From Nitrospira sp. (GTDB lineage: Bacteria > Nitrospirota > Nitrospiria > Nitrospirales > Nitrospiraceae), in contig CP092081.1 in NCBI GenBank assembly GCA_022226935.1, forward strand, positions 3,274,737-3,338,736: DNA of 64,000 nucleotides, read 5' to 3'. Under the pieces are notes generated by a model. It did not search any database and was not told where the DNA came from. It worked only from the letters and a program-made list of their open reading frames with translations. Below are positions 1 to 12,465 of this stretch, one piece after another (within the stretch, counting starts at the first letter, position 1; each line of letters opens with the position of its first letter). The position numbers and the translations under genes are program-made.

Positions 1-9
1 GAGGATTCG

Positions 10-3000
10 ATGAGATCGAGCGGACGCTATTGGAGCCTGCTGCTTCTCGGGGGATGCGTACTTCTGGGGTCGGCCTGTGTGGGAATACACCCTGTTCCGA
101 CGGTTCCCAATGTGTGCAAAGAACGCACGATTAAGGCCGAGGTCGTCGCGTTGGAGCAAGCAATCGTCCTGAATCGTTATGGGGCGTTCAACCCCTCGGG
201 CATGTTGTTCGCGCTGAAACACGATGTGGTGTTTCACGATGGCACTCCCCTAAACGATGCCAACATGAAAGAAGCGCCCGGCAATGTGAGGCTGCGCGAG
301 GATAAGCGGCCCAGACCCCTCGTTTTGCGCGTGAACGAGGGCGATTGTCTGGAAGTACGGTTTCATAATCTCCTGATGCCGGCGGTGCCGGATGAGCGTG
401 TGCAAGGTCCCGAGCAGTATGGGGGAAAAGTGCCGGCTCACATGGAGGACCCGAGCGGTGTGCAATACGGCTCTACAGGCCCAACCGGCAGGAACCTTGT
501 GAAGGCCTCCGCCATCAGTAATGATTGGCCGCACACGCGTGTGGCGTCGTTTCACGTCAATGGTTTGGAATACGTTCCCATGACCGTGGCCGACTGTCCT
601 GTCTCCACACTGGACCGTCAGTGGGTCTGTGGAATGGATGGGGATAACGTCGGATTGAATCGAGGCCTCGTCAATACCGGAGGGAATCCAGCCATAGAGT
701 CGATACGTTTGCAGCTTGAGCAGCAGGGCACGCTTGTGAAGCCCGGGCAGAGCGCCATGTACCGCTATAAGGCTTTTCGAGAAGGGACATATTTCGCCTA
801 TTCGACCGGTGCGACAGTCGGTGGAGAAGGGGACGGCGGGCAACTCGGGATGGGCTTGTTCGGAGCGGTGAATGTTCAGCCGAAGGGGGCAAAATGGTAC
901 CGGTCGCAGGTCAGCTACCGTGATCTCCAAGAAGCGACCGTCCCGCAACCTGGGTCGGAACGTCATCCCTACCGCGTTCTCGATTATGAGAAGCGCTACG
1001 GATCAGGGGCGCATATGAACCGCCCCGTTCTCGCCATATTGGATGGCAACGAAATTGTCCATTCTGATTTAAATGCGGTGGTGGTGCTCGATAACCGGGC
1101 GGGGGACGGGTCCGCGACTGACGGCCACGACACAACCTCACCGGCGAAACACTGCCGCGACTACGTGGATGGTACTTCCTGCGGGAAATCTTACCGCGAG
1201 TTCACCGTGATCATGCACGACGAAGTGAAAGCGATGCAAGCCTTTCCGGAACTCGAAGACGAAGGCAATCCGTTGCACTACGTGAAAGACGGCATGGGCA
1301 TCAATTATGGGGTCGCTGGCCTGGGTGCCATGGTCATGGCGAGAAATCGCCGAGTCGGGCCCGTAAAAGATTGTCCGGAATGTCGAGCCGAAGAGTTCTT
1401 TTTGAGTTCCTGGGCGAACGGAGATCCAGCGTTGATTTTGAAATGGGATAAGGACAATCCTACACGCCCCGTCGGGGCGTTATATCCGGACGATCCTTCG
1501 AACGTCCATCATTCTTATCTCAACGATCCTGTCCGGTTCCGGAACATCCATGCAGGGCCGAAAGAAACACACGTTTTTCATCTGCATGCCCATCAATGGG
1601 TCATGGATCCCAGCGACCCCGGTTCCACGTATCTCGACTCACAGACCATTTCTCCGGGTGCCACTTTCAGTTATGAGGTCGAGTTCGGCGGTTCCGGGAA
1701 TAAAAATCGTTCTCCCGGCGACTCAATTTTTCACTGTCATTTGTATCCACATTTTGCCCAAGGCATGTGGGAACTGTGGCGAGTGCATGACGTCTTCGAA
1801 GATGGAACGCCCGGCCTTTCTCGTGCAACCGATGGGCGTCTGGGGCGCAACTATCCGGATGCCGAGGTAAAAGACGGGGTTGAGAGTCCTGCGCTGGTTC
1901 CTTTGCCTGGCACCGCGCTTCCGCCCATGCCGAGCAAGGTGTTTGAGGGGTATCCATTTTATGTCGCGGGGGAACCGGGCCATCGTCCGCCGCAGCCTCC
2001 GCTGGATATGGATATTGACGGGGGGCTTCCGCGGCATGTGTTGGCGAATGGGGAGAACACGACAAAACCGGCGCGCACGCCTACGCATGCGATCAATGAG
2101 GATGTCGTGGAGGAGGCGTTGCATAAAGGCGGGCTTGTCGCTCGGCTGAATGCCGCGAAAGTCTACAAGCAGAATCCCAATGCCCTTCTCGCGTTGGCTG
2201 AACAATGGGAATCGTTAGGCGCACTGAGGCTGCTCGACAAGGAGGGGGACGAGAGGGAGCGAACGGCCATGGCCTTCCATGAGGGGGAGCTGAAGGTGCC
2301 AGGACTTCACAAGGCCTCTTCCTCCGGCGCGCCTGGTTCCTCGACGAGGTGGGAACAGGAATCTGTCGGCTATGTCACGGATTGGGCCCTATCGAATACC
2401 GGTGGAGGCGCGCCTTCCGGCGATGCCGTATTCTACGTAAACGGGCGTAAGCGCATGCCCGGGGCGCCGTTCGCGGATCCCTGCCCGGCCCGCGCGCCAC
2501 AGCGGCAGTATAAGGCCGGCGTGATTCAAACTGAACTCACGGTGAATCGCCACGGCTGGTTCGACCCGCAGGCGCGCATCCTGGCCCTCGAGCAGGATAT
2601 CAAAGATATCATCGATCCCGATACTCGGACCCATTTGCCGGAACCCTTGTTCGTTCGTGCCAACTCCGGAGACTGCATCACGTTCATGCATTCCAATTTT
2701 CTGCCGAACGCGATGGGGCTGGATGACTTCCAAATTTACACCCCGACCGACACGGTCGGACAACACATCCATCTCGTCAAGTTCGATGTGACCTCATCCG
2801 ACGGGTCCGGGAATGGTTGGAACTATGAAGACGGCACGTTTGCGCCCGAAGAAATACGTGAACGGATCCTGGCCTACAATCGAGCCCAGAAGCAGGCGGG
2901 GAAGCCTGCGAGTGAGTTTCTGGCGTTTCAGACCCATCCCCTGTTTAAGCCAGAGTGCGGGCAGGATTCCAACTGTAAGGCATTACAGGAGCGGGGGACA

Positions 3001-6000
3001 TGCCCAGAGTGGACGACGAGCCGCTCGGAGATGGAGCGGCGCGTGCCGAAATTGACGGGGGCGACCTCCGCCGAGACCGCTGAGATTGTGAGTAAGCTGG
3101 CGGACCTAAAAAAAGAGCTGAGAACGATCAATGAAGAACACCCCTTCTGTGCCGCGCAACGCACTGTGCAGCGATGGTATGCCGACCCGATTCTCGACCC
3201 TAAAACAAAAAAAGATTACACCCTCCGCACCGTATTCACGCACGACCATTTCGGTCCGAGCACCCATCAACAGCATGGGCTCTATGCAGCCCTCGTGGTC
3301 GAGCCGGCCAATTCAGTCTGGTTGCCGCTGGATAGGAACACGCTGACCAAAGAAGACTCGTCGGATCCCCCCAAAATACTCGGAGGGGCCGATCTGTTTC
3401 CCCCTCCATCAACCAATGACCCAGCCACTGAGCTGAGAACGCCGCTTGTCCTGAGAGAGGATGGAGGTCCAACCGCTACCCGGGCAAACATCGTCGCGCC
3501 GAAATGCATCGGCCGAAAAGACTCCAATCCCCTCATGCCTGAAGGAAACGACTGTGCCGGAGCGCACCAGCTGTCTCACGATACGAAGCGTGAGTTCGCG
3601 ATCGCATTTGCCGATTTCGCCATTCTCTACAACACGGCCCTCGAGCCCATCAATCCTGAAGAGCGAGATCTCTCGGCCTTGCGGTTCGGTCATCGCCAGG
3701 TGGCCATCAACCTGCCCAAGCCGTTGGCCATATCATCGGAAGACCCCGGCACACAGCTGATCAACTATCGGAATGAGCCGATACCGCTGCGGATCACCGA
3801 TCGTACCGCCACCCCCGAGCTCGGTGGATTCAGCTATCAGCAGAAGCCCTGCGCTCTCGGCGACTTACGTTGCACAGGAGACATGGCCAACGTCTTCAGT
3901 ACGCTGGCGCATGCGGAGCGTGATCGGAAGCTGGCGATCCTCCCCGATAACGCCACTGTGTCGCCGAGGACGAAGGAAGTGCTTTCAGGTGTTCGTGCCG
4001 ATCAACACGGCTACGCCGACGCCGGAGGTGACGAGACCATGGCCGATCGTTTGCCTGATGCAATGGCCAAGATTGAAGATTGGAGAAAAAACTTTATTTG
4101 CGGGCTCTACCCGACCAAACAAGAGGGCAACGACACGTTGCCTGAAATACGCCACCGATGCCACATCAAAAACCACGAACCGTGGCGTGTCATGGGTGAT
4201 CCGGCGACACCGATTCTACCGGCGTACGAAGGCGACCCCGTCCAGATCCGATTGATCCAGGGCGCGCAGGAAGCGCAGCACGTATTCACCATGAACGGCG
4301 TGAAGTGGCTACGCGAGCCAGGCGTGACGAGTTCCGGATATGTGAATGCACAACCATTGGGGATCTCGGAGCACTTTGAGTTCGACATTAAAGTGAGTCC
4401 GGTGGATGCGAGTCGGACCGACTACCTATATTTCGGCTCATCCGTCGATCAACTCTGGGACGGCATGTGGGGCATCATGCGTGCCTTTGGAACACCCAGG
4501 AATGGAGCGCCTGACGAGGGACACCTCGCCTCTCTGCCGGGTCAAGCGCCGCCGCTCCTTCCGAATGAAACAGTGAAAGGGGCGCAGGTGTGCGACATCG
4601 TGCCTGAGGCGGAGCGGTTGAAGTTCGACATCAGCGCGGTCCGCGTATGCCAGCTTGTCGGGGGGTGTGACCGTATAGATGAACTGGGGCATGCCGGCAT
4701 TCCTTACAATCAACGATTGGGCATCGCTGACCCGAATGCCGTGATGTTTGTGCGGAATAATCGACTGCCCGGCGGGGGTGAGCCTACGCAGTTCAGTCGA
4801 GAAACGAACGAGCAGGTATTGCAACGCCTGAGATCGGAATTTCGCGGAGGCCGCCGGCGGGTCGAGCCGTTGGTGCTGCGCGCGCCGGCCGGGGCTTGTA
4901 TGGAAGTCCAGGTCCGGAATCACTTGCCTCTAATCTTTCCGGATGGCCCTGCTCTGGAGCAGAGCAACGGGGAGTCGATGACCGGTCATTTTTCCGATAA
5001 CTTCATGTCGATGACGGTGGACGGCTTTAACTACAATCAAGTGCGAATGTCGTCGACTGTAGGGCTATCTGCGCCCTTGGTTGCGCAGTTTGTCCGGACG
5101 GCCGACGGGACACACGTCGGCAGAAACAGTGCGCCTGCACAGAGCGATTCGATTGCCGAGGGGCAAGGTGGCTTGACTCCTCCCTGCGCTGCAGGCCCGG
5201 CGGAAAATCCCTTTCAGTGCAAGCCCGTGCCGTTTTATTGGTACGCAGGCGACTATCAATTGCGGCATCAGGACGGCAACGCGGAAGGGATCGGGAACCA
5301 AGTATCGGTTCCGATCGAGTTTGGGGCGATTCCTCTGCGCAGTTTCGGAGATGTGATCAAGCAGCCCGCGCACGGGGCCATCGGCGCTCTCATTATCGGA
5401 CCTCAAGGGAGTACGGTCTGCCAATCGGAGGACTCTCGTGAACAAAGCGCGGATGCCGGGACGGATGTCAGCGCCACCATCTGCAAGGCCGACGGGACGC
5501 GCTACCGTGATTTTGTTCTGGTCCTTCAAGATGCCGTAGACGCGAAGCAAGCGGGCTGGCCCATTCCCAATCTCAAGGGGGCCGAAGAGCCGGACGACTA
5601 TGGTGTGAAAGCGGTCAATTACCGGACCGAACCGATCTGGGGGCGACGCGGCGGCGATCCTTCGATCGAGTTCGAAGAGCGAAATGAATTCGATTACGCG
5701 CATGTGCTGAGCTCCAAAGCGGATGCCTCCGATCCCACCCGTTGCCAAGCCGGGATTCGACCGCTCCTGGAATTGCACCAGCGAGGGTATGAGGCGTGCG
5801 ATCCGGAAACGCCGATCTTCGTCGCGAAGGCAGGAAGCGAGGTCCGCTTGCGAATCGTGCATCCCGGAGGGCACACGCGTCAGCAAGCGATTACGCTGCA
5901 TGGTCACCACTGGAATCCGTTCCCCTGGAAACCAGGCTCCTCGGAGATGTATGCCGATAGCAACGCATCGCTCGCGGAGAGTTGGCTGGTCCAGGGAAGT

Positions 6001-6162
6001 TATAACGGGGTGGGCCCAATGATGGCAGCGAACCTGCTGGTGAAAGCCGGCGGTTCATCCGCGAGCCCGGGAGACTATTTATTCCGAAGCCAAGCCAGTT
6101 TTGTGTATGACGGCGGCATCTGGGGATTGATGCGAGTGCTTGGGCCGGATGCACATCAATAG
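10..6162 (+). CDS. Giant MofA/MnxG-like multicopper oxidase, exported
   Basis: A 2050-residue protein built from several cupredoxin-like domains, likely oxidising a substrate outside the cytoplasm and passing electrons through copper centres. The N-terminus is a signal peptide (hydrophobic residues 10-22) with cysteines at 16 and 23; LGGC ending at C16 resembles a lipobox, so it may be a lipoprotein. Copper motifs visible are HLHAHQW (H524, H526, H528), HCHLYPH followed by GM (H575, C576, H577, H581, M586), HIH (H919, H921), HDH (H1078, H1080) and HQQHG (H1086, H1089). A late HGHHW (H1964-H1967) and a weak HVFTMNG region suggest further degenerate domains. The HxHxH and HCH motifs precede the two HxH motifs, the reverse of ordinary laccases. 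Size and the motif neighbourhoods around residues 919 and 1078 resemble the manganese oxidases MofA and MnxG; substrate is inferred only. GAGG precedes the ATG. First gene of a packed operon with SCO and cytochrome c genes. Confidence 0.85.
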   Translation: MRSSGRYWSLLLLGGCVLLGSACVGIHPVPTVPNVCKERTIKAEVVALEQAIVLNRYGAFNPSGMLFALKHDVVFHDGTPLNDANMKEAPGNVRLREDKRPRPLVLRVNEGDCLEVRFHNLLMPAVPDERVQGPEQYGGKVPAHMEDPSGVQYGSTGPTGRNLVKASAISNDWPHTRVASFHVNGLEYVPMTVADCPVSTLDRQWVCGMDGDNVGLNRGLVNTGGNPAIESIRLQLEQQGTLVKPGQSAMYRYKAFREGTYFAYSTGATVGGEGDGGQLGMGLFGAVNVQPKGAKWYRSQVSYRDLQEATVPQPGSERHPYRVLDYEKRYGSGAHMNRPVLAILDGNEIVHSDLNAVVVLDNRAGDGSATDGHDTTSPAKHCRDYVDGTSCGKSYREFTVIMHDEVKAMQAFPELEDEGNPLHYVKDGMGINYGVAGLGAMVMARNRRVGPVKDCPECRAEEFFLSSWANGDPALILKWDKDNPTRPVGALYPDDPSNVHHSYLNDPVRFRNIHAGPKETHVFHLHAHQWVMDPSDPGSTYLDSQTISPGATFSYEVEFGGSGNKNRSPGDSIFHCHLYPHFAQGMWELWRVHDVFEDGTPGLSRATDGRLGRNYPDAEVKDGVESPALVPLPGTALPPMPSKVFEGYPFYVAGEPGHRPPQPPLDMDIDGGLPRHVLANGENTTKPARTPTHAINEDVVEEALHKGGLVARLNAAKVYKQNPNALLALAEQWESLGALRLLDKEGDERERTAMAFHEGELKVPGLHKASSSGAPGSSTRWEQESVGYVTDWALSNTGGGAPSGDAVFYVNGRKRMPGAPFADPCPARAPQRQYKAGVIQTELTVNRHGWFDPQARILALEQDIKDIIDPDTRTHLPEPLFVRANSGDCITFMHSNFLPNAMGLDDFQIYTPTDTVGQHIHLVKFDVTSSDGSGNGWNYEDGTFAPEEIRERILAYNRAQKQAGKPASEFLAFQTHPLFKPECGQDSNCKALQERGTCPEWTTSRSEMERRVPKLTGATSAETAEIVSKLADLKKELRTINEEHPFCAAQRTVQRWYADPILDPKTKKDYTLRTVFTHDHFGPSTHQQHGLYAALVVEPANSVWLPLDRNTLTKEDSSDPPKILGGADLFPPPSTNDPATELRTPLVLREDGGPTATRANIVAPKCIGRKDSNPLMPEGNDCAGAHQLSHDTKREFAIAFADFAILYNTALEPINPEERDLSALRFGHRQVAINLPKPLAISSEDPGTQLINYRNEPIPLRITDRTATPELGGFSYQQKPCALGDLRCTGDMANVFSTLAHAERDRKLAILPDNATVSPRTKEVLSGVRADQHGYADAGGDETMADRLPDAMAKIEDWRKNFICGLYPTKQEGNDTLPEIRHRCHIKNHEPWRVMGDPATPILPAYEGDPVQIRLIQGAQEAQHVFTMNGVKWLREPGVTSSGYVNAQPLGISEHFEFDIKVSPVDASRTDYLYFGSSVDQLWDGMWGIMRAFGTPRNGAPDEGHLASLPGQAPPLLPNETVKGAQVCDIVPEAERLKFDISAVRVCQLVGGCDRIDELGHAGIPYNQRLGIADPNAVMFVRNNRLPGGGEPTQFSRETNEQVLQRLRSEFRGGRRRVEPLVLRAPAGACMEVQVRNHLPLIFPDGPALEQSNGESMTGHFSDNFMSMTVDGFNYNQVRMSSTVGLSAPLVAQFVRTADGTHVGRNSAPAQSDSIAEGQGGLTPPCAAGPAENPFQCKPVPFYWYAGDYQLRHQDGNAEGIGNQVSVPIEFGAIPLRSFGDVIKQPAHGAIGALIIGPQGSTVCQSEDSREQSADAGTDVSATICKADGTRYRDFVLVLQDAVDAKQAGWPIPNLKGAEEPDDYGVKAVNYRTEPIWGRRGGDPSIEFEERNEFDYAHVLSSKADASDPTRCQAGIRPLLELHQRGYEACDPETPIFVAKAGSEVRLRIVHPGGHTRQQAITLHGHHWNPFPWKPGSSEMYADSNASLAESWLVQGSYNGVGPMMAANLLVKAGGSSASPGDYLFRSQASFVYDGGIWGLMRVLGPDAHQ

Positions 6163-6204
6163 GGGTCCAGCGGGACCACCCAACACGAACGAAGGAGCGG
6201 CTCC

Positions 6205-6813
6205 ATGGGCGACCCTGAAGCAATGAGCAGTAAACAGGATATTGAGCATCTTTCGGGATGCCAAGTGTTGAAGTGGTTCGATCATCCTCTATCTCCCGGA
6301 CGGCCTCTGCCGTCGGGGATGCCTCTTGAGGAATGGGACGGCACCAATATTTACAGCCTCAAGGGGCAAAGCATCGGCATTGATTTGGCGGACATCAAAG
6401 CGAAAGTGTATCGCTGCTCCAGAAACGATTTCGATGCCAGTTTCAGCGAGGGGAGCAGTGTCTTGAATTTTGAGGCGGACCCGCTCGTGAATCTCGTGCA
6501 TCTGCGATTCAATCCTCCTGTCCAAGCGGTTGGCACGCATGTGGCGGGGGCGAAGCGAGATGGTCGCGAGTATAAAGTCTCGTTCATGCTCTTGCTCGCC
6601 GACGGCTCGAAGTCGACGCCTTTTGCAGTCTCTCAAAAGGGAACATTCAGCTCAAATCGGGATACGGCTCCTTTTGTAGGGGCGAAAGCGGATACGGCGA
6701 ATCCGATTGTTGAGATGTATTGCGATATTTATCCGACAGGCAACCGGGACGAAGATACGGAGGCCGATGTCGCGATCGGGGATCTCTATTTCGTGTCGAG
6801 TCTGCAAGGGTGA
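6205..6813 (+). CDS. Conserved-looking hypothetical protein in the multicopper oxidase operon
   Basis: 202 residues, not recognised. The ATG follows GAAGGAG with about 8 bases of spacing; a second ATG at 6223 is possible. No signal peptide or membrane segment is evident, unlike all its neighbours. The sequence alternates short hydrophobic stretches with polar turns (for example VSFMLLLADG, VEMYCDIYPTG, IGDLYFVSS), which suggests a beta-sandwich fold. It lies 42 bases after the multicopper oxidase and 5 bases before the propeller gene, so it is almost certainly cotranscribed with them. It could be an accessory or assembly factor, but nothing in the sequence gives a reaction. Confidence 0.7.
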   Translation: MGDPEAMSSKQDIEHLSGCQVLKWFDHPLSPGRPLPSGMPLEEWDGTNIYSLKGQSIGIDLADIKAKVYRCSRNDFDASFSEGSSVLNFEADPLVNLVHLRFNPPVQAVGTHVAGAKRDGREYKVSFMLLLADGSKSTPFAVSQKGTFSSNRDTAPFVGAKADTANPIVEMYCDIYPTGNRDEDTEADVAIGDLYFVSSLQG

Positions 6814-6818
6814 CGCCC

Positions 6819-8774
6819 ATGGATGCCAGTCTCACGCGCCTCAGCGCCATCGTTATTATCCTGGTATGCCTGTTCGATACGGTGGGAGCAGAAGAAGCCG
6901 CTATCGTTCAGAAGCAGCAACATGGCGGCGTCGCCGTCGAGTTTCAGTTCGAGCCGCAACAGCCGCCGGCCTCATCGCCGAAGAATCCTGTTGGGCCCCC
7001 GCAAGGGATTGCAAGCTTTCGTTTCACCGATTCGGTAAGCGGTCGCGCGTATGAAGGCCTTCGCCCCGCTGCCTGGATGGTTGCGCGGCGCTCGCAGCAG
7101 GTGGCCGATGAGCTGTCCTGCGAAGAGAAGGCTCGACAATTCGCCAGTGGCTCATTGGGCTCGCGGGCCGATATCGATCTGAATGCCTATCGTCTTGTGA
7201 CGATCAATCAGGACAATACCGTCGCATTTATCAATCCTTTCGTGAGTCTGCAGAACAGCAAGCTGGAGTCGATCGTTCAGTTGCCGAGTCGGGGATATGA
7301 TTGGGCGCTCGTCCCTGCGTCGCATCGCCTTCTGGTGAGTTTGCGAGAGGCGGATATGGTGGCCGTGATCGATACGGATTTGCGTCGTCTCATGGGGGTC
7401 ATTTCGTTTGAAACCGGCAGTCGGCCGACTCGGCTGGTGCCTGATCCGGACGGCCGTCGCCTGTGGGTTGGGTTGGACGGCCGAGACGAAGTGGCCGTTG
7501 TCGATCCGACTGCGAGCGTCGAACTGGCGCGGGTTCCCGTGGGGCGAGGGCTTCACACATTCGCCGTCGCGGATGACCTGGCCTGGATATTCGTGACAAA
7601 CACAGAGGACGATACCGTGAGCGTGCTCGATCGGCGGCGACAGGCGAAGATTGCCGATGTTCACGTCGGAAAGACCCCGGTGGCCATGGCGTGGAGCGCT
7701 ATGGCCAAACGATTGCTGGTGGCAGGGCTCAATGGAAACACCCTCGATATCGTCGATCCAGAACGAGGACAGGTTGTGGCACAGGTGCCGCTCGCCCAGG
7801 GCATCGTTGCTCTCGGGTTGTTCGATCAAGGCCGGTACGCGTTCGCCGTGAATCAGCTGCAGAGCCGAGTGACGTTGCTCGATCTTGCGTCGGCGACCGT
7901 CAAAGGGAGTATTGCGGTGGCAACGAAGCCGGACCATATCGCCTTTACGCGAGAGTTTGCCTATGTGCGAGGACAGGGAACTGCCAATATCAGCGTCATT
8001 AATCTTGGAGAAGCCCGCCAGGGACGATTGCAGGCCGTCGCTGTTCCGATCGGACAGTCTCCGCCACAAGATGCGCCGGAGAGTATCAATATCGCCGGGA
8101 TCATGGCTGCTGCGCCGGAAGGCGATGGCCTCTATGTGGCGAACGGGCCGGATCGGATCCTCTATCGATATGTGGAAGGATTGATGGTCCCCGCGGGGAG
8201 TTTCAGTAATTACCGCCGAATGGCGCGCGGCCTTCTGGTGCTCGATACCAGTTTGTTCGAGCAGCGGCCTGGCCTATTTGCGGCGCCCGCCTCGTTCCCC
8301 TTCGGCGGGGAGTACGATGTCATCGTGAAAAGTGTGCGGCCGGCAGTGACGGCATGTTTTGCCGTCACCGTCGCCGGTCCACTCCGACGTCCTCATACCG
8401 CCGGCGTTGCCAAAACAGTGTCTGTGACGTTGGAGCGCGTGACGTCTCCGAATCATGGCTCCGATCGGTCGGTCCATCTACGGTTGAGCGATCGCAACGG
8501 CCAGCCGGTAGATGGCGTCCGTGATGGAGTACTGCTGGCGCTTCAATTGCAGAGTCGGTGGCAGCGGCGTGTCCCCATTCATGACCGTGGAGCAGGGCAG
8601 TATGAGGCCCACCTGATCTTTCCAGAGTCCGGGGAGGTGGAGTTGCTCGTCGCGATCCCATCGCAGGGGGTGGAGTTTACCGCAGGACATCTCGGCCAAG
8701 TCAGCGCGTCTTCGAACATTTCAGCCGTGGAAATCAAGGGGGAGAACAAAGGAGTCCCGCATGCGGAGCGTTAG
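6819..8774 (+). CDS. Exported YVTN-type beta-propeller protein
   Basis: About 651 residues from the ATG at 6819; the frame is open upstream to 6720 but that part overlaps the previous gene, and a signal peptide (hydrophobic stretch SAIVIILVCLF) begins only at this ATG. The middle of the protein repeats the pattern of YVTN/cytochrome d1-like propeller blades, for example MVAVIDTDLRRLMGVISF, EVAVVDPTASVELARVPVG, TVSVLDRRRQAKIADVHVG and TLDIVDPERGQVVAQVPL. The C-terminal third looks like an immunoglobulin-like or other beta-rich module. Such propellers act in the periplasm as interaction platforms or redox-enzyme partners. The stop overlaps the start of the SCO gene by 14 bases, which implies translational coupling. 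No CxxCH motif is present, so it is not a cytochrome itself. Confidence 0.8.
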   Translation: MDASLTRLSAIVIILVCLFDTVGAEEAAIVQKQQHGGVAVEFQFEPQQPPASSPKNPVGPPQGIASFRFTDSVSGRAYEGLRPAAWMVARRSQQVADELSCEEKARQFASGSLGSRADIDLNAYRLVTINQDNTVAFINPFVSLQNSKLESIVQLPSRGYDWALVPASHRLLVSLREADMVAVIDTDLRRLMGVISFETGSRPTRLVPDPDGRRLWVGLDGRDEVAVVDPTASVELARVPVGRGLHTFAVADDLAWIFVTNTEDDTVSVLDRRRQAKIADVHVGKTPVAMAWSAMAKRLLVAGLNGNTLDIVDPERGQVVAQVPLAQGIVALGLFDQGRYAFAVNQLQSRVTLLDLASATVKGSIAVATKPDHIAFTREFAYVRGQGTANISVINLGEARQGRLQAVAVPIGQSPPQDAPESINIAGIMAAAPEGDGLYVANGPDRILYRYVEGLMVPAGSFSNYRRMARGLLVLDTSLFEQRPGLFAAPASFPFGGEYDVIVKSVRPAVTACFAVTVAGPLRRPHTAGVAKTVSVTLERVTSPNHGSDRSVHLRLSDRNGQPVDGVRDGVLLALQLQSRWQRRVPIHDRGAGQYEAHLIFPESGEVELLVAIPSQGVEFTAGHLGQVSASSNISAVEIKGENKGVPHAER

Positions 8775-9351
8775 TCCTCGACGCCTTCCTGTTTGGTTGC
8801 CTTTCATGCTGTGCGCGGGGTTGAATAGCGCCGCACCGGCGCTGGCAACTTCTTGGATTGATCCTCCTCTCGTGCCCGATGTCGTGGTTCAAGATCAAGA
8901 TGGGCGGTCCCTCAATTTCTACCGGGATCTCCTCCAGGGGCGTACCGTCCTCATCAATTTCATCTTTACGGGATGCCGGTCAGTGTGTCCCACTCAAACA
9001 GCCATCTTGCGCGATGTGAAGCAGCGCTGGACCGATCTGCCGGCCGGGCAGAGCGCTGTGCTGCTTATTTCTATTACGGTCGATCCCAAACATGACGGCC
9101 CGCAACAATTGCGAGACTATGCTCGGCGTTTCGACATCGATCCCGGGATGCCTCAAGGCTGGGTGTTCGTGACCGGTGAGACGCGTGAAATCAACACGTT
9201 GCTGTCCTCTTTCAGTAGCCGTGCCGCGCAGCCTGCCGACCATTCGAATGTCGTGTGGGTCGGCAATGAACCGCGCCGGCGCTGGTCTCGCGCCGCAGCG
9301 TTGAACACTCCACCGCAGATCGCTCAACTGCTTCGGGAGATTCTGCAATGA
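8761..9351 (+). CDS. SCO1/SenC-type copper chaperone
   Basis: 196 residues with an N-terminal signal sequence and a thioredoxin-like fold. The copper-binding pair is seen in FTGCRSVCPTQT (C72 and C76), and the third ligand expected in SCO proteins is the histidine of DHSNVVW (H161). SCO proteins load copper into extracytoplasmic enzymes, classically the CuA site of cytochrome oxidase. Here no oxidase subunit is nearby, whereas a giant multicopper oxidase is the first gene of the same operon, so delivery of copper to that enzyme is the likely job. AAAGGAG lies just before the ATG. The start overlaps the propeller gene and the stop overlaps the next gene by 4 bases. Confidence 0.88.
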   Translation: MRSVSPRRLPVWLPFMLCAGLNSAAPALATSWIDPPLVPDVVVQDQDGRSLNFYRDLLQGRTVLINFIFTGCRSVCPTQTAILRDVKQRWTDLPAGQSAVLLISITVDPKHDGPQQLRDYARRFDIDPGMPQGWVFVTGETREINTLLSSFSSRAAQPADHSNVVWVGNEPRRRWSRAAALNTPPQIAQLLREILQ

Positions 9352-10823
9352 ATGTCATGCGCGTGGCGGTCATTGGATTGGCGGCGTGCCTTCCGGTGGC
9401 GGCGGTGGCTCATGGGCAGTCGGTCTCCTTCGATGAGGCTGCTGCTCGAGGCCATGCGCTGTACCATGGGGTAATCGCATTAGACGGACCGGCGCACGTC
9501 GGAGGCGCGATGCTGCCGGCTTCAGCCGGTGCCTGCGTGAATTGCCACGGTGCCCGTGGGCAAGGGGGGATTGAAGCGGGCGTGAAGGTGCCTGGCATCA
9601 GTTGGCGCATGCTCACCCAGCCGAATGCTGATCGGCCTGCGTATGAGTCGGGTCTGCATATCCTGCAAGCCATTGAAGGCGGACGGAGCGCACATGGTCA
9701 TCGGTTGGCTCCTCCGATGCCGGCATTTGCGTTAACCGACGCTGAAAAAGAGGCATTGAGCGCGTATCTGCAGGTGATCGGGACAGAGGCAGATCAGGCG
9801 CAAGGTGTATTGCAAGATCATCTGAAAATTGGAGCTGTGCTTCCGCTGCAAGGCGCCGGGCGCTCGCGGGGCGAACGGATTCAAGCCGGCTTGCGGGAGC
9901 GGTTTGCCGCCATCAATGATGCGGGGGGAATCTATGGTCGACGGCTTGAATTGATCGTCGAAGAGGCCGGTGCTAGCCCGGACAGCGTCGTGCAGGCCGT
10001 CGATCGCATTATCGAGCAGCAGCAGGTTTTTGCGCTCGTGGGCAGTTTTCTTCCGGAGCTTCCCGCGGCGAGCTTGCAGACCATCAAACGCCATCGAACT
10101 CCGGTGGTCGCCACGCTCGGGGTTCCGCTACATGACGCGACAGAACGCGACCTTACCTACCTGCTGCCCAGTATCGAATCGCAACTGCGGCAGCTGGGAG
10201 GCGAGGTCAGAGCGCAGTGCGACACGGAGAAGGGGCTGTATGTGTTGCATGCGCCGATGCCAGGCCTTGCTGAGGTCATCCGGGCAACAGTGGCGAACAC
10301 CGCCGGGCGAGCGGGTGCGCTCATGCAAGTCGTTCAGAGCCCCGCCGAGGCCTTGGCCGTGCTGAGGGAGCCGACTGAGCGAACGGTCATCGCATTGGCC
10401 TCGAAAGGCACGGTGCAGACGATTCGGGCCCAGATGCAGGGAACGGCTGCGCCTATTTGTCTGGCGACCCTGGCCGCGTTTTCTGGTCTGCCGCAGCCGG
10501 CTCTCAATGATTCTCCGGATGCCTCCACGATGATCCGGGAAGTCGTGGGACTTCCTCTGCCCGTGGTCGCGCTCTCCTCCGACCCCGCGATCGAAGGAGA
10601 CGCTCTATGGACGGTCCTGGCGGATGTGTCTGCTCGCATCCTGGCGGAGGCGCTCGCACGGACGGGTCGCGTCGTGGACTATGAGGCGTTCGATCGCGCG
10701 CTGCATTCGTTGCAGGGATTTGAACCGATCAATGGCTTGCCGGTGAGGGTGACATCGCAGCAGCGGCATGGAGTGGCCGCGGCCTACATCTGGAGAGGAG
10801 TGTCGCATGTACGCACGGAATAA
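9348..10823 (+). CDS. Cytochrome c fused to a periplasmic ligand-binding domain
   Basis: 491 residues with a signal peptide (ending near AVAHGQS). An N-terminal cytochrome c domain carries a single haem motif CVNCH (C63, C66, H67), with a likely axial methionine in the PPMPAF segment. From about residue 159 (LKIGAVLPLQG) the protein continues as a type-1 periplasmic binding fold of the branched-chain amino acid receptor family: GLRERFAAINDAGGIYGRR and a VGSF hinge-like segment are typical. The combination joins a one-haem electron carrier to a small-molecule receptor in one exported polypeptide. It follows the SCO gene with a 4-base overlap and overlaps the next gene by 17 bases. The cytochrome could accept electrons from the multicopper oxidase partner; the ligand is unknown. 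Confidence 0.8.
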   Translation: MNVMRVAVIGLAACLPVAAVAHGQSVSFDEAAARGHALYHGVIALDGPAHVGGAMLPASAGACVNCHGARGQGGIEAGVKVPGISWRMLTQPNADRPAYESGLHILQAIEGGRSAHGHRLAPPMPAFALTDAEKEALSAYLQVIGTEADQAQGVLQDHLKIGAVLPLQGAGRSRGERIQAGLRERFAAINDAGGIYGRRLELIVEEAGASPDSVVQAVDRIIEQQQVFALVGSFLPELPAASLQTIKRHRTPVVATLGVPLHDATERDLTYLLPSIESQLRQLGGEVRAQCDTEKGLYVLHAPMPGLAEVIRATVANTAGRAGALMQVVQSPAEALAVLREPTERTVIALASKGTVQTIRAQMQGTAAPICLATLAAFSGLPQPALNDSPDASTMIREVVGLPLPVVALSSDPAIEGDALWTVLADVSARILAEALARTGRVVDYEAFDRALHSLQGFEPINGLPVRVTSQQRHGVAAAYIWRGVSHVRTE

Positions 10824-12324
10824 ATTTATCGGGAGCGTGGCGCTCGTGGGATTGTTCGTGTCCTTTGGATTCGACAGGGTCGGCGCGCAAACGCCCACGC
10901 CCTCATTCGCTTTTGTGGGACATCTGGAACGACTTGAGATCGCAGACTTGGCCGATCCTCTATCCGCCGGCAGTATGGTGGTCAGCGGGACGCGCATCAC
11001 GTTGCCGAGAAATCTCTTGGTGAAGCTGCCCGGTCAATACATGACGGTCAATGACCTGTTCCGGGGGAAGCATCCGGGCAAAGTCCCCGCACTGTCCGCA
11101 GCCAGTAGGCCGAGCGGGCTCGCACTGCTCGACTCGCCGCCTCAGAAGCCGGCACTCCCGTTTGAGGTGGAAGTCATCGGGAATATCGTCGGCGCGGAAT
11201 ACATTGCAGGGTGGGTGTCGATTGCACAGGTAGGGCTACAAACCGGTGCGGGCTTTATTCAATCCATAGACTATGCCACTGGCGCATTAATGGTCGGCTC
11301 GGGGAGCGGAGCTTCAATGGTCAAGGTGCGCATCAACGATTCTCGTGGTACCTATGGCAAGCCGAATGCGGCAAAGGGTGCTGGGAGCGTGATGGATGAT
11401 CGCTTTGCGGCGGACCCTGGTAATGCGCCCATCGTCTCACAGACCGGATTTCCGATGTGTATACCGTTGTCGGCTGCAGGGGATCCGAATTGTCCCCTCG
11501 CGAATCGCGGCAGCGGGAATGAGAGTCGGTTCACATGTGGTCCGGCCAGCGTTGATCCCACCGCTCCGGCCAGGCCGACGTGCGATCCTGGCAGGAAGGC
11601 GCCGGTGGTCGTCGGCGACTATATCACCTATTCCGGCATGTTGACCGAAGAAACCCCTGGCGCAGGCAATTTCTTCATCGCCGCGCATGCGATCAGTACG
11701 TTGACGGGAATTTACACTTCTCCCGGAGCGAACCCTGCCTATGTCTTCATTGAGGAGGCTCTTGTCGGCACGCTGGGCGCCCCGTTCCCTCCCCCCAACG
11801 ACAATCAAGAGCAGACGTCTCGCTTTCGCCTCGTTGGTTTTACAACGGACCCCACGAGACGGGTCGACATCTTTCTTATCGACACGTCCCAAGGTAATCC
11901 CGACGAACAAGAGCGTCGTCTTACCACGCTTGACCCACAACGTGTGGGGCAAATTGGCCGTATACGCGTTACGCTTCCGGCTAAGGCTAACTTTTTGCCC
12001 GTGACCCGCGATGTCCGAATTCGGATTGAGGGCCACAGTTCAATCAAGGTCGCAAATGGGTTGGATTCCGGCCAATACACCGCGCCGGTCGCTGAATATA
12101 TCTATCCGGAGAACACTCGCTGGGGTGTCCCTCGATTCCCCATTGCCATCCCTTTTGAGAATTTTTGTTTCCTGAAACAAGGCGGTGGGACGCTTGGAAC
12201 ATTGGGCCGTGACGAGTTACCCAATCCGCACCCGCTCCGGCCGGCCATCGGCGCACTCCTGCCCTTTCCGAACTCGGGGCAGGCGACGCAGGTGAAGGCC
12301 GATGGAACATCGGCCTGTCCATGA
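10807..12324 (+). CDS. Exported protein of unknown function, last gene of the multicopper oxidase operon
   Basis: 505 residues from the ATG at 10807, preceded by GAGAGGAG; the frame extends upstream to 10768 but that part lies inside the preceding gene. A clear signal peptide (GSVALVGLFVSFGF, cleavage near VGAQ) is followed by a beta-rich protein with no motif I recognise. Residues just after the signal, with GHLERLEIADL and SAGSMVVSGTRITLP, look like an OB-like or DUF5666-like beta module. Several cysteines in the middle (MCIPLSAAGDPNCPLANRG, FTCGPASVDP, TCDPG) could form disulphides. The 17-base overlap with the cytochrome fusion gene ties it to the operon. A structural or carrier role at the cell surface is possible, but this is a guess. 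Confidence 0.75.
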   Translation: MYARNKFIGSVALVGLFVSFGFDRVGAQTPTPSFAFVGHLERLEIADLADPLSAGSMVVSGTRITLPRNLLVKLPGQYMTVNDLFRGKHPGKVPALSAASRPSGLALLDSPPQKPALPFEVEVIGNIVGAEYIAGWVSIAQVGLQTGAGFIQSIDYATGALMVGSGSGASMVKVRINDSRGTYGKPNAAKGAGSVMDDRFAADPGNAPIVSQTGFPMCIPLSAAGDPNCPLANRGSGNESRFTCGPASVDPTAPARPTCDPGRKAPVVVGDYITYSGMLTEETPGAGNFFIAAHAISTLTGIYTSPGANPAYVFIEEALVGTLGAPFPPPNDNQEQTSRFRLVGFTTDPTRRVDIFLIDTSQGNPDEQERRLTTLDPQRVGQIGRIRVTLPAKANFLPVTRDVRIRIEGHSSIKVANGLDSGQYTAPVAEYIYPENTRWGVPRFPIAIPFENFCFLKQGGGTLGTLGRDELPNPHPLRPAIGALLPFPNSGQATQVKADGTSACP

Positions 12325-12375
12325 GGGGTGCAGGCTCTACATGGGCAGGGCTTCTTGAAGCGCGGTTGTATCCGT

Positions 12376-12413
12376 CGCACCCCTATCGTGCCACATGGCA
12401 CGATAGGGGTGTG
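12376..12413 (+). terminator. Strong hairpin ending the multicopper oxidase operon
   Basis: A perfect 15-base inverted repeat (12378-12392 and 12397-12411) with a 4-base loop, extendable by a G-T and a C-G pair. It lies 52 bases after the last stop codon and 23 bases before the rpsF promoter. No long T run follows, so it may be an mRNA-end-stabilising or weak terminator structure. Confidence 0.6.
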
Positions 12414-12435
12414 CCGCATTAGCCGTGAATGATGT

Positions 12436-12465
12436 TTGACAGCCTTTCCGGTCCTGTGCTATTTT
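12436..12465 (+). promoter_or_regulatory. Sigma70-type promoter for rpsF operon
   Basis: TTGACA at 12436-12441, an 18-base spacer, and TATTTT at 12460-12465 with an extended -10 TG at 12457-12458. The predicted start is near 12472, giving a leader of about 75 bases before rpsF. Confidence 0.6.

Follow-up and report, generated by a model that had tools for sequence, protein, structure and literature searches.

Six co-directional genes, called as open reading frames at positions 10-12324 of the window (the whole analysed stretch of 64,000 nucleotides), form one operon in a closed 4.23-Mb Nitrospira genome (Table 1). A sequence-only reading had drawn attention to six closely spaced or overlapping genes on one strand, and this arrangement proves to be real: a homologous gene set recurs in order across many phyla, and the grouping is hence not due to chance. 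The genes encoding the SCO protein, the cytochrome and p518 each overlap the preceding gene; the operon contains one SCO gene and no gene for SurA, and p518 directly precedes rpsF. That reading was also right in that most of the products carry signal peptides, since inspection by eye reveals a signal peptide or lipobox in five of the six (the exception being p202; the N-terminus of MnxG shows a lipobox-like ...LLGSAC), and its CxxCH protein is indeed a cytochrome c, which can now be described more fully as a fusion with a Peripla_BP_6 binding protein. The GC content is level with that of the flanks and GC3 differs only slightly, so that composition gives no signal of transfer. Upstream of the operon, no regulatory RNA such as a manganese riboswitch was matched in Rfam, and the sigma-54 (-24/-12) search near the window gene yielded nothing better than chance; a perfect sigma-54 match lies beside P. 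putida mnxG, within the numbers expected by chance for that locus. Queries for the AMO family found no match in the window's own genome, where control queries likewise matched nowhere.

Table 1. Features of the operon, of its oxidase and of the chromosomal slot (window positions unless stated otherwise).
Feature	Position	Strand	Remarks
MnxG-like giant multicopper oxidase	10..6162	+	2050 aa; predicted lipoprotein
MnxG copper motif HVFHLHAH	residues 521-528		
MnxG copper motif HCHLYPHFAQGM	residues 575-586		
MnxG copper motif HIH	residues 919-921		
MnxG copper motif HDH	residues 1078-1080		
p202	6205..6813	+	202 aa; no signal peptide
YVTN-type β-propeller	about 6819..8774	+	weak YtkA/FixH-like C-terminus; first in-frame ATG at ~6819
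SCO1/SenC copper chaperone	8761..9351	+	CxxxC = CRSVC
Cytochrome c fused to Peripla_BP_6 binding protein	9348..10823	+	CVNCH
p518	10807..12324	+	secreted β-rich protein with invariant Cys; alternative ATG at 10768
Slot, window part	1..12452	.	alignable flank resumes at ~12452
Shared noncoding stretch	G000:C1:3274210-3274627 (L001 11474-11891)		~110-530 bp before the first base of the window

The first gene encodes an oxidase of the MnxG type, as had been proposed: against the NCBIfam MnxG model NF041487 it scores 854 bits, spread over seven stretches, and against the solved MnxG of Bacillus (PDB 9bxa) it gives E 2.7e-95; significant homology to the P. putida and Bacillus enzymes covers most of its length. 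Over aligned positions, the protein is ~40% identical to P. putida MnxG; in the copper core, identity is 52% with this enzyme and 43% with that of the Bacillus type. The laccase-type copper motifs noted earlier are borne out as well, with all ligands intact: the T1 and T2/T3 ligands occur in the permuted order HxxHxHxH, HCHxxxHxxxGM, HxH, HxH, identical in the window, P. putida and Bacillus-type proteins, and in an alignment of 90 sequences the canonical ligands coincide with those in the enzymes of P. putida and of the Bacillus type, with zero substitutions in the 86-88 homologues covering them. The score of 854 bits fails the equivalog cutoff of NF041487 (3100 bits), which one P. putida MnxG clears with 3893 bits; the window protein is thus classed as a homologue belonging to a separate clade, and not as an equivalog.

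Matches to MnxG were obtained in 56 of 149 Nitrospirota genomes, most of them being due to another multicopper oxidase of ~1,660 aa whose matches span ~100 residues and which is left out of our MnxG counts. This second giant multicopper oxidase (~1,650-1,660 aa, L051 7603-12483) shares ~29-31% identity with MnxG. Many Nitrospira genomes that lack an mnxG operon encode it; at E 1e-10 it went undetected in the genome to which the window belongs. On contig C29 of G078 (L032, L033), MnxG is split into parts covering residues 1-370 and 669-2048, which lie ~370 kb apart on opposite strands, reflecting either an inversion break or a misassembly. Another family shows the module in a different arrangement: in G091 (L187 2981-13825), the gene for a 1,718-aa MnxG-like oxidase precedes one for a cytochrome-binding protein fusion of 915 aa, and a propeller gene comes next.

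The suggestion that the whole module may be undescribed does not apply to its core. Downstream of P. putida mnxG we find a propeller with YtkA, two SCO proteins, a cytochrome c-Peripla_BP_6 fusion and SurA, and for the P. putida GB-1 operon mnxG, a YVTN propeller, two SCO1/SenC proteins, an ABC binding protein with a cytochrome c domain and SurA have been listed (PMC11409713 Table 4; a similar operon is described in PMC8218464). The propeller, SCO and cytochrome c-binding protein fusion sit 3' of mnxG in the order of GB-1, the core thus corresponds gene for gene, and ‘undescribed’ is fitting for p202 and p518 only. As judged from sequence, the window operon is a variant of the mnxG operon already known from bacteria. 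The association extends far beyond these two genera: in a survey of 104 neighbourhoods (some from the same genomes, and with simple ORF picking that misses some genes), 66 contained the propeller, 53 the cytochrome fusion and 49 an SCO gene, in most cases right next to MnxG. The neighbours travel with the oxidase across phyla, at least one module neighbour accompanying MnxG in Nitrospirota, Proteobacteria, Myxococcota, Acidobacteriota, Planctomycetota, Gemmatimonadota and Chloroflexota (Anaerolineae), in one actinobacterial MAG and in Methanoperedens archaea. In the latter (L126, L131), an MnxG-like oxidase is followed by a propeller gene. Another nitrospirotal genome, G081, encodes two MnxG homologues of different clades (L046, L047), one of them in a P. 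putida-like operon with two SCO genes.

The MnxG enzymes studied so far couple the oxidation of Mn(II) directly to O2. Since all ligands of the O2-reducing site are present in the window protein, the same coupling is the default, and Mn(II) oxidation by direct reduction of O2 is the likeliest function that can be predicted for it. MnxG, probably lipid-anchored outside the cytoplasm, would most likely convert Mn(II) to Mn(III/IV) oxide; its type-1 copper would take up the electrons and relay them to the trinuclear site, where O2 is reduced. Loading or retention of copper would probably fall to SCO together with the propeller/YtkA protein, and the cytochrome c-binding protein fusion would be a conserved partner acting in redox transfer, maturation or sensing. 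An oxidase of the MnxG family might, however, serve another purpose, that is, oxidation of Fe(II) or phenolics or detoxification of Cu(I), its Mn-oxide activity being lost or incidental in the window's clade. Multicopper oxidases are promiscuous, so that Fe(II), Cu(I) and phenols are possible substrates; the copper-handling SCO and YtkA neighbours would equally suit copper resistance; and the protein, besides scoring below the equivalog cutoff, falls into a clade separate from those of P. putida and Bacillus, and no activity-proven member of this separate clade turned up. The single SCO gene, the absence of SurA and the lack of a sigma-54 match better than chance likewise count against equating the operon with that of P. 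putida. Considering that the operon content is that of a Mn-oxidase operon, that the copper core is 52% identical to that of P. putida MnxG, and that the match to the CopA model TIGR01480 is negligible, we regard such a change of substrate as unlikely, albeit not far-fetched.

The cytochrome raises a further possibility. The sequence-only reading had the oxidase feed electrons to a dedicated cytochrome, a hypothetical step that, with the trinuclear-site ligands intact, is not needed. In its lithotrophic form, electrons from Mn(II) would flow via MnxG and the operon cytochrome c to a respiratory oxidase, and the nitrifier would gain energy. A cytochrome c domain is indeed built into a conserved operon protein, a multicopper oxidase serving Mn lithotrophy would need to deliver its electrons to a carrier in the periplasm, for instance cytochrome c (PMC9040806), and Nitrospira has been proposed to oxidize Mn in sand filters (PMC12070406). 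However, the O2-reducing copper ligands are intact, and heterotrophic Pseudomonas possesses the same cytochrome fusion, which thus does not mark lithotrophy; we consider energy gain by this route very improbable. The fusion is of interest in another respect: that P. putida needs cytochrome c maturation genes to oxidize Mn has long been known (PMC11409713), and the cytochrome c encoded in the operon is a candidate explanation for this need.

Two members of the operon, p202 and p518, had been said to lack a recognizable family, and we confirm that neither has a match in Pfam or NCBIfam, nor a sequence match in the PDB. They are accessories of the MnxG subclade to which the window belongs. Within the loci examined, p202 was seen only beside MnxG. 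Its AlphaFold model (pLDDT 82) is a β-sandwich resembling carbohydrate-binding modules (CBM) and galactose-binding domains, the best fold match being carbohydrate-binding-module-like with a Z-score of 10.4; fold likeness is not function, and p202 is probably a small accessory resembling carbohydrate- or surface-binding proteins. An assignment to DUF1521 was discarded (1 of 13 members only, below cutoff).

For p518, the co-occurrence check among 149 Nitrospirota genomes gave a match in 14 of the 14 carrying the window MnxG group, with strong matches absent from all others (Fisher p 6e-20, uncorrected for relatedness). A longer and weaker relative exists in five further Nitrospirota genomes, and all four of these relatives that were examined lie near a different multicopper oxidase with SCO. 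The relatives in L183, L184, L185 and L186 comprise ~820-836 aa, and the loci L183 and L184 also encode a di-haem cytochrome of ~911-914 aa. In loci of the Planctomycetota type (L094, L095, L099, L104, L108), p518 relatives are encoded divergently from MnxG on the opposite strand and comprise ~850 aa and, in most loci, additionally 1,510-1,580 aa; the long relative in L094, the one locus scanned, contains eight cadherin/Big_9 repeats. The proximity of p518 relatives to other multicopper oxidases, together with these repeats, suggests that p518 is an extracytoplasmic, surface-related partner of multicopper oxidases, and it would probably act as an extracytoplasmic scaffold for multicopper-oxidase modules. 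The p518 model is of moderate confidence (pLDDT 75); its best fold match (Z-score 7.3 over 85 residues) is unconvincing, with most of the matches covering an Ig-like stretch.

Phylogenetically, the window MnxG clusters with proteins from Nitrospira RSF1, G078, Hydrogenophilales and Nitrosomonas. This cluster is nested within a proteobacterial clade and separate from the main clade of Nitrospira as well as from the clades of P. putida and Bacillus. Gene order shows the same division: MnxG-p202-propeller-SCO-cytochrome-p518 is found in the window, Nitrosomonas and Rhizobiales, and p518-MnxG-propeller-SCO-cytochrome in most Nitrospira. Since tree position and gene order agree, horizontal transfer is likely, and the operon was probably acquired from, or shared with, proteobacteria in this way.

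The slot that the operon occupies has its left limit upstream of window position 1, near G000:C1 3274086, where it follows a gene for a glycine-rich lipoprotein (left flank: rplY-pth-(410-aa gene)-(217-aa gene)-lipoprotein gene); on the right it extends almost to rpsF with its leader (right flank: rpsF-ssb-yceD-plsX-fabH). With the same flanks, the slot is empty in 12 Nitrospira genomes (G001, G003, G004, G006, G007, G008, G010, G011, G014, G015, G016, G018), holds the Nitrospira-type operon in six (G002, G005, G012, G017, G021, G042), and in one, G026, harbours an operon of the P. putida clade with two SCO genes. Hence, three operon lineages, namely the window, Nitrospira and P. putida types, have come to lie in the same gap. 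When the filled slots of the window, G002, G005, G021, G026 and G017 were aligned against the empty site of G010, similarity ended on the left at G010 3913-3916 and on the right at 4038-4056 in the first five, and resumed at 4029 in G017; these positions show how far the sequences can be aligned and are not proven points of recombination. The window genome and G026 also share ~420 bp of noncoding sequence (67%) upstream of MnxG, although their operons belong to different lineages. This stretch has no Rfam match and occurs in no other of the 149 genomes, except for a 41-bp match in G114. In a quick tree, a single clade of slot-holders was rejected (p-AU 1.5e-82, for a group named after a first tree had been inspected). 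This is most simply read as one permissive site into which operons were repeatedly inserted or in which they were replaced, and sequence comparison well supports the view that this Nitrospira slot exchanges whole mnxG-type operons of different phylogenetic origin. Taken together, we think it fairly probable that the locus is a variant mnxG operon whose lipid-anchored MnxG oxidizes Mn(II) with O2 and which was probably transferred into the slot between the lipoprotein gene and rpsF. That the slot swaps candidate manganese-oxidase operons whose cytochrome, in addition, provides nitrifiers with usable electrons from Mn(II) appears highly doubtful.

Studies of water works have suspected Nitrospira of manganese oxidation without a tested gene set, and the window now offers a defined operon, to which two uncharacterised partner families, p202 and p518, can be added as being tied to MnxG. 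Since related Nitrospira differ in whether the slot is filled and by which operon, they also constitute a natural comparison of presence and absence. The occurrence of MnxG in Nitrospira is in itself not new: MnxG homologues with a possible role in Mn oxidation are common to the window, to sand-filter Nitrospira MAGs, for which a role in manganese removal has been suggested (PMC12070406), and to many nitrifier MAGs (PMC11995701, with the caution that activity is untested). An analysis of the operon, of its accessory genes or of slot exchange was not found in the consulted passages of the two reports, and the operon correspondence, the association with p518 and p202 and the exchange at the slot are, as far as seen in related literature, new here.

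Among other systems, Leptothrix MofABC and McoA likewise feature large multicopper oxidases that are proposed to oxidize Mn(II), but mofA is followed by mofB, encoding a Mip-like protein, and the cytochrome gene mofC (PMC8218464), a set unlike that of the window; no recognizable MofA match was obtained in 81 genomes of the Caldimonas family at E 1e-8. Bacillus MnxG (MnxEFG, PDB 9bxa) is a homologous oxidase with the same copper ligands and the additional His of the HxxHxHxH motif, as judged from a relative from Priestia (L055), but the Bacillus protein comprises ~1,220 aa instead of 2,050 aa and has small MnxE/MnxF subunits in place of the window's accessory set; within the window operon, no genes of ~100 aa were recognized. 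Bacillus MnxG is, moreover, spore-associated. The P. putida GB-1 operon shares with the window (i) the giant MnxG in first position, followed by a YVTN propeller with a YtkA-like end, (ii) SCO and the fusion of cytochrome c with an ABC binding protein, and (iii) the copper motifs in identical order. It differs in possessing two SCO genes instead of one and SurA, which the window operon lacks, and a sigma-54-like site, such a promoter under MnxR control being a mark of the GB-1 type; near the window gene no site better than chance was seen. The window operon adds p202 and p518.
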